Assembly (NCBI GenBank): GCA_033819885.1
Contig: JAQYUZ010000007.1
Span: 478,613-542,612 of the forward strand
DNA: 64,000 nucleotides
Reading direction: 5' to 3'
Source: Microbotryomycetes sp. JL201
Taxonomy: Eukaryota > Basidiomycota > Microbotryomycetes
Shown: positions 45,207 to 50,036 of the stretch, piece after piece
Numbering within the stretch: position 1 is the stretch's first letter
How the letters are laid out: every line of letters begins with the position of its first letter
Program-made: the position numbers and the translations under genes
The notes under the pieces: generated by a model
What the model saw: only the letters and a program-made list of their open reading frames with translations
Told to the model about the DNA's origin: nothing
Databases searched by the model: none

Positions 45207-46504
45207 ATGGGATCCATGCCAGAAGGCACGACGACGCTGCTGGATGCTCTGCAGCGCACGACGCGCGTCGATTATGATGGCAACGACGCCAACCTGGTCA
45301 AGCTGTTTGCGCCACACACGTTTACAGACATGACCTCGAACCAGGTCAGTGGCAGTGTATACCGGTCGCTTGACGTTGCTGAATCGCGCCGCTCAAGGCC
45401 ATTGTCTACGGCGAGCTGGCAAAGGAACATCACAAAGATATTCTCGCACAGTCGTGCTTGCAGGCGCAACTGCTAGTCGAGCAGGGTCAGCCAGGCGCAA
45501 AGAATCGTGATATTGCCGCTGTTGCGGTAGACTTGGCGGTCAGTGTCTGTTCGGTCGACTGTCGTGCGCGCAGCCCCGGAGCGCACGGGCCGCTGCCGTC
45601 GCTCGAGCGTGCATGAGTCGACGAAAGGCTGAAGCGCGTACGCACTCACTGCAGGGAATCACGCTTGCAACTCGCATCCTGCCCTTTTTGAAACCTCACG
45701 GACTCGTGCACGCGCAAACGTCGGTGGCCGCCGCAAACTCTGTCGACCAAACGGTCGCTCACGGCCTTGCCCTTGTGCATTTGTTTGAGCTCTGCGGAGT
45801 TCCGAAGGATCGGGTCTGCTTAAAGGTCCCGGCGACAGTCGCTGGACTGCAAGCATGCGCGCGACTCGAGCGCGAGGGCATCAACACGCTGGCGACCATT
45901 GTCTTTACGATCGAGCAAGCGCTCGCCGGCGCTAGCGCAAACTGCAGATATGTTGCCGCATATGTCAACCCTCTGCACGTGCACTTCAAGCCGGGATCGC
46001 ACATTGAACTGGGTTTGCACGGCTTGCCAGGATGGAACGTGTTGACTGTCGCGCAGCAAACTTTTACAAAGCGTCAAGTTTCGCGCACGCAAATGATGGC
46101 CGCCAGGTAAGTCTGCAAGCAGCTGAGCGCCCAAGCTGTCCGTTGACGATTCTATCTCGGGCAGCCTTGTCACCGTCACCGAGGCTGCGTCCTTGGCTGG
46201 TCTCTCGTGCTCGACCATCTCGCCGGCTCTGCTCGCCTTGTGCCAGTCCACGCCTCTCACTCCTCAGCTCGAAGCTCAAATCAAAGAGTCCCAAAAACGG
46301 TACTCGTCGGCCGAACCGGCAAGCGACAGCCTTGATTGCAATGTCGAATCGGACGTTGGCGTCACGACCGTACGCAACGCGATCGAGAATGACGAACGCG
46401 TCAAAGCGCTCGTCAAAGAAGCTCTCGACATTTTTGGACAGTTTGAGATGGACTTGATGGCCATGGCAAGGGACTGCTTGAGCAAGATTGGGGAGGGACA
46501 CTGA
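45207..46504 (+). CDS. Transaldolase-family protein
   Basis: TIM-barrel transaldolase of the pentose phosphate pathway or a fungal paralogue of it. Support: TTTLLDALQRTTRVDYD, AIVYGELAKEHHKDILAQSC, AAVAVDLAG, ITLATRILPFLKPHGLVHAQ, RVCLKVPATVAGLQACARLE (the Lys of KVPAT is the Schiff-base residue), INTLATIVFTIEQAL, and YVAAYVNPLHVHFKPG. The wording differs from canonical TAL1 (the TNPSL strand is not visible), so this looks like the transaldolase-like branch rather than the main enzyme. Introns begin gtcagt and gtaagt. Convergent with MOCS1, with 82 bp between stops; divergent from POM152. Confidence 0.75.
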
Positions 46505-46586: not shown

Positions 46587-48799
46587 CTACCTGCCTGAAT
46601 CGGCTCGTCTCGTCCAATCGCCACTCTTGCCACCTTTTTTGCTCTCGACGTACACGTCACCTATTCGCGCCTCTTGCCCCGCAACAGCCTTGACCATGTC
46701 CCACACAGTCAACAAGCCAACGCTGACGCTTGTCAATGCTTCCATCTCGACACCCGTCTGACCTCGACACTCTACCGTCGCTCGAATCTGAACAGCTAAG
46801 CGATCAACGATGGGTGTCAGGTCGACCTTGATGGACGTCAACATGAGTGGGTGACACAACGGAATCAAAGCGGATGTTGATTTGGCAGCCATGATTGCGG
46901 CTAGTTGAGCTGTCGTCAACACGTCTCCCTTTTTCGTGTGCATCTTCAAAGGTCGAGACGCAGGCTCTGCGTCCGAGACTGGCGATGAAAACTCGATCAA
47001 GTCGAACGCGTCCTTGTTGAGAAAGATTGTACCGACGGCTGTGGCCGTTCGCGTCGTGACGCCCTTGTCCGAGACTGACACCATTGACGGCCTGCCCGTG
47101 GTCGGATCTGTATGCGTGAGACGTTGCGGCTTTGCAGAGGAGTACGCTCGAGCAAAAAGAGGCGCATGTCGATTTTTCGGCAGCCAAGGCAAGACGCTCT
47201 GTGACTGACGTCCTGTCGTTCGCGCAAGACTTGGTGAGCAGTTGCGTCTGGACGGACAAGCGAGCTCACCTGTTGACGGCCAGGGAAAGCAAAGTAAGCA
47301 CCGGCTCAGAAGGCGTCAACCGCCGATGCCGACCATTGGACCCATCTTGCCTTTTTCCTTGATCCCTTGAGCGCCACCGAGTCCGTTGTGCGCAAAGTGC
47401 TTGCCCAAAACGGCTCGCCCGACTTGGTGCATCAGCTTGTCGTCCGTGCACGTTGGGTCACGCAGCAAGGGCCGCAGAGCCAAGACGGGTGGTCCAAACA
47501 GGCAGACCTGTTCGAGTGCAAAGTGTCAGATTTTGTTGTCAAATTGACCTCTGTGGCTCACCTTGACGCCGCCGTCGGGGCCGACACGCAATCGCGAACA
47601 TTCGCCGCAGAAATGATTCGACATGGAAGAAATGAAACCGATCGTGCCTTTGAAGCCGGGAACCTTCCACGACCTCGTCGTATCGCTCTTGGGATCAATC
47701 AGCTTGTGCAGGCCCGGATATCTTGTTTGCAACCGATTGACGAGCGTTGACGACGGCACAAGCTTTTCTGTTGACCATTTGTTGTCTTCGAATGGCATAT
47801 ATTCGATCATGCGTACGGTGATGTCCCGTTCGCGAGTCATTTCGACAAAGTCGGCCACTTCCATGTCGTTCACGCCTGTGGTCGACTCGTTTCAGCGACG
47901 AGACGAGGAGGCTGGTGTCAGACTGACCTCTGATGACGACAACATTGATTTTGAGCCTCAAGCCTGCATCTTTGAGCGACATGGCCGTTTCTATCGAGTC
48001 CAACACGGCCTGAAAGCCTCGTCGTCGCGTCATGATCTCGTACTTGAACGGGTCGAGCGTGTCGAGAGAAATGTTGAGGTGCGTGAGGCCTGCATTGACG
48101 AGGGCGGGCAGCTTGCGCTTGAGAGCGATGCCGTTCGAAGTCATACCGAGAGACGCGAGCGGGAGTCGGCCAAGACGAGCTGACGAGTATGCCGTTAGCT
48201 CAAAGTCCTGTTCACCATGGGCCTTTGCACTTGCCAACAATGTCGATCAAGTCCTTTCGTACGGTCGGCTCGCCACCGGTCAGTCGGATCTTTGTCACGC
48301 CGTTCGAGACAAACATTTTGGCCGTGCGTTCAATCTCGTCGGCCGTGAGCAGATTGTCTTGTGGCAGTAAAGGCACGCCTTGTTCTGGCATGCAGTAGGT
48401 GCCTAGAGGGGGAATAATTAGCTTGCGCGCTCTCGGCCACGACCCGCAGGCACGCGACTAACATCGCAGGTTGCATTTTTCAGTCAGACTGATCCTGAGA
48501 TAATCGTGTTGCCGGCCAAACGAGTCTACAAGGTGTGCCGACACGTTCGCCGGTCCTCGAGTCTGGTCGACCCGACGAATCCGGAGCTGGACCTGTCGAG
48601 GACGGATCAGAAGCAAGTTGAATCGGTCATGTCGCTGCTGACTGACCTTGTCTCGCAGCGTAGAAGCCGGGATGGCAACAGGCGTCGGTATCTGCGCGCT
48701 CGAGCCGCCGCTGTACGACCGGCGCACGAGCGCCGACGATGCTAGAGATTGCGCCGTCCACGCTGAAAGCTGCACTTGTGTCTGCAAGCGCGCTCGCAT
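46587..48799 (-). CDS. Molybdenum cofactor synthesis MOCS1 locus (MoaA + MoaC)
   Basis: Makes cyclic pyranopterin phosphate from GTP. The MoaA part starts [14 protein letters not shown] (mitochondrial-type, RRSYSG). It then has [20 protein letters not shown] spliced to TYCMPEQGV (radical-SAM CxxxCxxC), [55 protein letters not shown] for the second cluster, and the C-terminal tail [13 protein letters not shown] (47316-47318) follows directly, and the same frame then stays open into Moa[69 protein letters not shown] intron lies at 48180-48234 (GCAAGT). See the optional intron at 47270-47320. Coordinates span both products. Confidence 0.9.
47270..47320 (-). other. Optional intron that would remove the MoaA stop codon
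   Basis: 51 nt, minus strand. Donor gttgac follows ATCGGCG of the Gly-Gly tail; the acceptor is gtcaacag. Splicing joins GIG-G to ELACPSRRN and on into MoaC in frame; retention ends MoaA at GG-stop. The donor is weak, as expected of an optional intron. The alternative is readthrough of TGA in a TGA-C context. Confidence 0.55.
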
Positions 48800-48970
48800 G
48801 GCGTGTCGGCGTGGCTTTGATTGGCAGCAAGCCGAAACCCGGCCGAGTCAGCGCGCGCCTCGAGCTCGCACTCTGTCCATACCGCCCGTCATGATCAAGG
48901 TGCGCCGCAGAGCTTCATCTCAGAACCCGTCAACCGCGTCATGACACGTTCAAACATGTAGATCTGGAGC

Positions 48971-50036
48971 ATGAAGAAGAACGAGGAGGCCGCAGCCAAA
49001 AAGAAGCCTAAAACATCTGCGGCACAGATCAGGGTGCAGAAAGGTGAGCCCAGGGGTCTTGATAGAGGTCGTGTCGTGCTTCGCAGGTGCCTTGGAAGAC
49101 CGTCGGGGGCGTCACCATTCTTGAATGACGACAGGCTCGGGACAGCGACGGCTCGTGCACACGACAGCAGACCAAGCAGGCTTTGTGAGGCATGTCACGA
49201 GCCCCCTTTGGCTCGTTAGAGCTCCCTGGAAACGGGCATAGGGCCAGCACAGTGCGCTCGCCTAGTTTCGCGATCACGCGACTGGCGTCATTGTCCGTCG
49301 AGCAGGGCGATGCATACTGCGACGCAACGTCGTCAAAACGGTGCTTATGTGGTCGATGCTGACTCTTGCATGCCGCCGCTTGGCGTGACGGGCTGCATTT
49401 CTTGCAGACTTGACCGAGCTCGACTTGCCATCCACGATGAAGACGCACTTTCCAAATCCAGAAGACTTGCTCAACTTCGAGTTGACAATCACTCCAGACG
49501 ACGGTGCGTCCGCGAACGGGTTTGATGGCGGTCGTCGACTGACGCCACCTGATCCGGCCTAGGCATGTACGTCGGCGGCGAGTTTAAATTTACGTTTGCC
49601 ATCAACTCGAACTATCCGCACGACCCGCCAAAGGTCAAGTGCGTGCCAAAGGTTAGCCGATAGTGTTGAGTTTCTTGCACGCAGCTGCTGAATTCCCGTT
49701 CGGCCACTAGATTTATCATCCCAACCTCGATTTGGAAGGAAACGTGTGTCTCAACATTCTCCGTGAAGACTGGAAGCCTGTGCTCAACCTGAACGCCGTC
49801 ATGGTCGGCCTACAATACTTGTTTCTCGAGCCGAACGCCGACGACCCCCTCAACAAGGGTGAGATTGGCGTGACCGTATCGATGCGCGTCTTGACTGACA
49901 TATTTTGCGTCGGAACGCAGATGCTGCCAAAGATTTGCGCGAAAATCGGCAGCGGTTTGCACAAAACGTTCGTTCGTCAATGCGCGGTGGCGTTGTCAAC
50001 GGCGAGCCGTTTGACGACGTGCGTATCAAGACCTAG
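48971..50036 (+). CDS. UBC12: NEDD8-conjugating enzyme Ubc12
   Basis: E2 enzyme for cullin neddylation. The N-terminal extension [19 protein letters not shown] is typical of Ubc12 (its docking peptide for the NEDD8 E1). A 364-nt intron (49044-49407) follows. Then [55 protein letters not shown], active-site Cys in [20 protein letters not shown] and [16 protein letters not shown]. The last exon encodes [16 protein letters not shown] and ends DVRIKT. Four introns. Divergent from MOCS1, with only about 170 bp between starts. Confidence 0.95.

Follow-up and report, generated by a model that had tools for sequence, protein, structure and literature searches.

A locus on the minus strand of the DNA stretch analysed here (the window, 64,000 nt from Microbotryomycetes sp. 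JL201) encodes MoaA and then MoaC, with 64 codons between them and a stop codon at the end of MoaA. How can both proteins be obtained from such a locus? Our results make it likely that this is a gene of the MOCS1 / nit-7 type which is read in two ways: splicing would yield either free MoaA or a MoaA–MoaC fusion, and the fusion would be imported into mitochondria and cleaved in its linker. The gene would serve the first step of molybdenum cofactor synthesis, and its two parts presumably lie on one mRNA. The coding parts of the locus are as follows.

48647 to 48799, minus strand: MoaA exon 1, placed by its reading frame and the joined translation
48463 to 48592, minus strand: MoaA exon 2, ending within the radical-SAM motif CNLRC-TYC
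48235 to 48402, minus strand: MoaA exon 3, with a Radical_SAM (PF04055) match in its frame
47928 to 48179, minus strand: MoaA exon 4, with a Radical_SAM match in its frame; the preceding intron is of the GC-AG type
47562 to 47875, minus strand: MoaA exon 5, C-terminal cluster domain, Mob_synth_C (PF06463, E 3.3e-21)
47316 to 47507, minus strand: MoaA exon 6 including the stop, with the TIGR02666 match reaching its end
47316 to 47318, minus strand: TGA directly after the Gly-Gly tail, context TGA CGC
47124 to 47210, minus strand: linker of 29 residues, in which R-A-Y|S-S fits RX(F/Y/I/L)|(S/A)(S/T), a consensus taken from the covered part of PMC8847149
46587 to 47123, minus strand: MoaC through its stop (PF01967, E 1.4e-46; TIGR00581, 149 bits)

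Joined, the six MoaA exons encode a protein of 402 residues. Residues 72–402 match all of NCBIfam TIGR02666 (positions 1–336 of 336) with 328.6 bits (cut-off 284.05), and the last position of the model coincides with the last residue of the protein, immediately 5' of the stop. More specifically, the minus strand reads ATG GTC GGC ATC GGC GGT TGA at this point, i.e. MVGIGG and then the stop, as the initial annotation had it. The Gly-Gly stop of MoaA is beyond chance, since the whole profile is matched up to it. By sequence, the best solved structure for this protein is 1tv7 (a MoaA; E 1.6e-49), and the printed alignment stops at residue 366, short of Gly-Gly. The Arg/Ser-rich N-terminus of MoaA (MRARLQ...VRRSYSGG) resembles a mitochondrial presequence and contains R-S-Y|S.

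Introns were scored with a model that was self-trained on coding frames alone, without transcripts, in 264 kb of DNA (the window plus 200 kb). The model was trained on GT donors only, and GC donors were assigned a 1% prior. The trained set comprises 297 introns with a GT[GACT]AG[TC]-like donor, the branch site CTGAC and a median length of 66 nt. It includes one candidate from this locus (47333–47270). The five introns that we place in MoaA all lie outside it and therefore provide a small independent check. They score 23.8, 12.6, 6.5 (GC-AG), 19.5 and 23.6 bits, and each of their donors carries A at +4 and G at +5. Introns 2–5 are needed for the frame; the first one (48646–48593, 23.8 bits) was placed by splice signals alone, the frame being open through it. 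The intron at 48403–48462 (minus strand) has a T at donor position +3 (GTTAGT) and splits the radical-SAM cysteine motif CNLRC-TYC. The GC-AG intron at 48180–48234 (minus strand; G|GCAAGT...CGTCAG) is needed at the junction of exons 3 and 4 for the MoaA frame.

The assembly of 17.15 Mb is compact and rich in introns, as fits a fungus. PF01967 and PF06463 are matched once each in it, both times at the MOCS1 locus. MoaE is encoded on contig C52, and an Oxidored_molyb protein (sulfite oxidase / nitrate reductase family) on contig C23, where three neighbouring, exon-like pieces apparently form one gene. Since both of these proteins are encoded as well, the molybdenum cofactor pathway is probably in use. 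Regarding the neighbours of MOCS1, a transaldolase gene at 45207–46504 (plus strand; PF00923, E 1.6e-24 for the main exon) faces it. The stop codons of the two genes are separated by 82 nt, and the 3' ends of their mRNAs therefore probably overlap. On the other side, a divergent gene at 48891–49562 (plus strand) starts 91 bp from the MOCS1 ATG. Pieces of it suggest a possible NEDD8-conjugating enzyme like UBC12; two fragments of this gene gave no Pfam match.

Downstream of the TGA the MoaA frame is open from 47315 to 46587, i.e. for 242 codons, and contains MoaC. The MoaC match covers 136 of the 136 positions of PF01967, the TIGR00581 score exceeds the cut-off of 141.5, and the protein matches ten solved MoaC sequences. 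As compared to two bacterial MoaC structures with printed alignments, it carries an extra stretch of about 20 residues at ~46935–47005 (minus strand). The initial annotation had the frame running open for about 65 codons into MoaC, and this is borne out, the distance from the TGA to RLTHTD of MoaC being 64 codons. An open frame of this length follows 15.5% of the 9,567 TGAs in the 264 kb examined; by simple arithmetic, the chance of having MoaC in frame as well is 15.5% x 1/3, or about 5%, and the open frame is thus only mildly beyond chance. Within the 64 linker codons there is no ATG in the MoaC frame. The first in-frame ATG, at 47084, falls exactly where the Pfam MoaC match begins; a protein started there would be without a presequence and without the 13 residues from RLTHTD onward. 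It is important to note that the NCBIfam MoaC matches begin earlier, at residue 68 for TIGR00581 and residue 64 for NF006870, as compared to 78 for the start at 47084. With the first ATG at the domain edge and no presequence behind it, mitochondrial MoaC is likely to stem from the MoaA–MoaC fusion.

If MoaC is made as a fusion, the TGA has to be passed. Four segments around it have to be considered.

47270 to 47320, minus strand: the 51-nt GT-AG segment of the initial annotation; donor GTTGAC 0.4, acceptor CAACAG 6.5, branch-like GCTTACT 4.8 bits
47213 to 47269, minus strand: 57-nt intron candidate 3' of the stop, CAG|GTGAGC...CGACAG, 20.1 bits; TGA kept
47213 to 47320, minus strand: 108-nt fusion intron candidate, with the weak donor 47320 and an acceptor shared with the strong 57-nt candidate, 11.0 bits; in frame
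47205 to 47333, minus strand: 129-nt fusion intron candidate, ATG|GTCGGC...CGTCAG, 12.9 bits; in frame, VGIGG and the stop removed

The strongest donor of the region, CAG|GTGAGC at 47269 (9.4 bits), lies 46 nt from the stop. It stands at the 97th percentile of the trained donors and the 57-nt candidate (exact score 20.05) at the 66th percentile of the trained set, comparisons that are partly circular because the trained introns were selected by a score threshold (all are at least 13 for donor, acceptor and branch together). Donors of at least 9.4 bits are found at 2 of 44,569 positions in the interiors of long ORFs, and within 150 nt 3' of 1.6% of 1,500 TGAs. Intron-like pairs of at least 20.1 bits occur in 4.0% of 224 long-ORF pieces of 200 nt; for the 200 nt that follow each of 1,500 TGAs, a set in which real introns are present, the share is 9.7%. 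By these figures the donor at 47269 is probably real. At 47264–47275 (minus strand) the strong donor GTGAGC begins right where the good acceptor CAACAG ends, making this a possible recursive splice point; the abutment is to some extent expected, because donors too have CAG as their consensus on the exon side.

The signals that would remove the stop are weaker. The best-scoring option is the 129-nt candidate, and the Gly-Gly codons lie inside it, which is the mark of the nit-7 subtype; the options starting at 47320 split the second Gly codon, and the fusion retains GG. Control TGAs were required to have 30 open codons on the 5' side and 40 on the 3' side, which gave 1,220 cases (taken from both strands of all DNA examined, real introns therefore included). 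Of these, 47.7% offer a GT-AG pair of at least 11.7 bits that takes out the stop and keeps the frame, and 38.8% offer one of at least 12.9 bits. For 1,500 random TGAs the corresponding values are 52.5% and 42.7%. With equal pairs so common, the existence of a stop-removing in-frame pair is no evidence for its use.

This bears on the mechanism put forward in the initial annotation, where the 51-nt segment is a single intron and the sole variable element: its retention would yield MoaA, its splicing the fusion. The segment does have GT and AG borders, and its removal joins MoaA and MoaC in frame. Besides the TGA, the 15 codons that follow it are lost as well. Its acceptor and the branch-like GCTTACT 26 nt from the end are consistent with an intron, and the total of 11.7 bits is insufficient to dismiss it because two MoaA introns that are required are weak as well (12.6 bits with GTTAGT, and 6.5 bits for the penalised GC-AG intron). 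Against this, the donor GTTGAC is found in 1 of the 297 trained introns and is without A and G at +4/+5, unlike all five placed MoaA introns; about half of the control TGAs offer an equal or better option; and the strong donor next to the segment is left unexplained. The 51-nt intron is probably not the main one, and we find it unlikely that it explains the choice by itself.

Codon usage does not settle the status of the 51-nt and 57-nt segments. By the full codon score, the share of stretches as low as these two together is 0.17% for coding windows (n = 579) and 4.3% for off-frame windows (n = 511). When synonymous choice alone is counted the signal is gone (as low in 6.0% of 851 coding windows), the linker being no better (6.1%), and we rejected codon usage as a proof of intronic origin. 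An RNA hairpin steering the splice choice was likewise rejected: a 7-bp pairing joins the strong donor (GGTGAGC) with the branch region (GCTCACC), but shuffling the 71-nt segment 2,000 times gives an inverted repeat of this length in 6.9% of cases, and the RNA at 47360–47195 folds no better than its own shuffles (z 0.13).

Because the strong donor at 47269, overlooked in the initial annotation, lies after the stop, the locus points to alternative 5' splice sites instead of plain retention of one intron. In a gene read in two ways, mRNAs that keep the TGA, either with the intron retained or with splicing from 47269, would give mitochondrial MoaA with the free C-terminal Gly-Gly that is required for activity. 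Use of a weaker donor, 47320 or 47333 (the 51-, 108- and 129-nt options), would lead to loss of the stop and to the MoaA–MoaC fusion. For these two donors we favour the acceptors 47213 or 47205. It speaks against this scheme that all stop-removing in-frame options are low, 12.9 bits at best, and that the strong donor by itself leaves the stop in place; the contrast of these low scores with the trained introns is partly circular, because the latter were selected at 13 bits or more. The fusion would be imported into mitochondria via the MoaA presequence, and cleavage within the linker would then free MoaC; R-A-Y|S-S is a plausible site for this, with the matrix processing peptidase (MPP) as the enzyme.

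The 29-residue linker contains no acidic residues. The motif in it is of the two-step type, cut by MPP and then by Icp55 according to the covered part of PMC8847149. When the 64-residue linker was shuffled 20,000 times, 0.6% of the products contained R.Y[SA][SA] and 9.2% the less strict R.[YFL][SA][SAT]; both figures apply to a pattern that was picked after inspection of the sequence. R-A-Y|S-S may be an MPP/Icp55 site that explains MoaC release; it is a good lead and not a result. The most specific version of the splicing and cleavage scheme has weak 5' splice sites at or just before Gly-Gly competing with the strong one 46 nt after the stop, which might also serve as a recursive splice point, and an internal presequence on which MPP and Icp55 act at R-A-Y|S-S. 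We put this forward tentatively, as possible rather than probable. If this is true, it gives a molecular identity to the MoaC-releasing cleavage in fungi, for which the literature, as far as covered here, names no protease.

Two further explanations do without a fusion made by splicing. Ribosomes could bypass the stop by readthrough, the sole intron being the 57-nt one after it, whose removal keeps the frame. The common frame is open for the 64 codons, this intron scores best and is a multiple of three in length, and readthrough isoforms are established in fungi according to the covered part of PMC4207609. The same source has UGA followed by CU as sufficient for efficient readthrough in Ustilago maydis, whereas the context here is UGA CG (UGA CGC); moreover, the nit-7 and MOCS1 precedents both rely on splicing. 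Over this context we set readthrough aside as the main route and rate it as quite improbable, although low-level readthrough may still take place.

Alternatively, MoaC could be translated separately, by re-initiation on a bicistronic mRNA or from an internal promoter, starting at the ATG 47084 or at a near-cognate codon. The ATG would keep the Pfam domain whole, and there are in-frame CTG codons at 47309 and 47183 and a TTG at 47192. A start at CTG 47309 would even provide an Arg-rich presequence, the stretch up to RAYSS being basic with one acidic residue. Trace re-initiation has been reported in a human MOCS1 mutant (review PMC9607355, in the part covered). However, MoaC started at 47084 would be without a presequence and without the 13 residues that are partly matched by the NCBIfam MoaC models, and in N. 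crassa NIT-7B started at its own methionine stayed outside the mitochondria and failed to restore growth (PMC7232280). Reading from CTG 47309 crosses both of the segments with the poorest codon scores. Separate translation is very doubtful in our view.

We return to the gene read in two ways by splicing, the general logic of which is already known from Neurospora nit-7, absent from the initial annotation, and from human MOCS1. The outline drawn there, free MoaA versus a fusion by splicing, fits the anatomy of the locus and both of these precedents; the 51-nt intron that was to carry it is doubtful because its donor is very poor. In N. crassa the unspliced nit-7 mRNA gives NIT-7A and the spliced one NIT-7AB, from which NIT-7B is freed after import, and the unspliced form increases with higher cofactor demand (PMC7232280). 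The choice involves a single intron of 237 nt (1460–1696) with an alternative donor nine bases on (PMC7232280). Among the open-licence titles listed as matches, this was the only experimental fungal study of the choice between MoaA and MoaA–MoaC. Like nit-7, the locus consists of one gene with MoaA, a Gly-Gly stop, potential in-frame splice signals that remove the stop, a linker, and then MoaC. Also as in nit-7, MoaC probably depends on the fusion for import, the ATG 47084 being comparable to M623 of NIT-7B. Given this layout, with an ATG-free linker and the first ATG at the edge of the MoaC domain, we infer the same two products. Unlike nit-7, MoaA has five introns here as we place them, the boundary candidates are 51–129 nt long and a strong donor follows the stop. 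Moreover, the choice in nit-7 is retention of one intron, whereas the one proposed here is between 5' splice sites. Human MOCS1 makes use of alternative 5' sites.

In human MOCS1, alternative splicing in exon 9 yields either MOCS1A or MOCS1AB, the latter being cleaved in the matrix (review PMC9607355, in the part covered). As in the human gene, the last MoaA exon would decide between the free A protein and the fusion, and the B part would be released by cleavage, as described for MOCS1B in the covered part of PMC9607355. The gene structure is different, and human MOCS1AB is imported via an internal targeting motif (same part of PMC9607355). The place of the human cleavage is given differently, being cytosolic according to PMC7232280 and in the matrix according to the covered part of the review PMC9607355. 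A precedent for a cut inside a precursor is the yeast tandem protein Arg5,6, which is cleaved internally by MPP (PMC8847149, in the part covered). The likeness lies in a mitochondrial tandem protein being cut inside, which is proposed here; the enzymes are unrelated. We know of no splice choice in Arg5,6. In Aspergillus nidulans, cnxABC likewise has both domains at one locus, which is likened to ours by description and is said, in the covered part of PMC7232280, to have been discussed as bicistronic.

The phenomenon itself is thus already published for Neurospora and human. The locus is a probable added fungal case of one gene that yields an enzyme with a free C-terminus as well as its fusion to the next enzyme, and the linker motif offers a directly testable site for MoaC release. 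The Neurospora authors suggest that B-domain release originated separately (PMC7232280). A comparison of splice layouts could show whether fungi and animals share the choice by descent or whether it evolved repeatedly.
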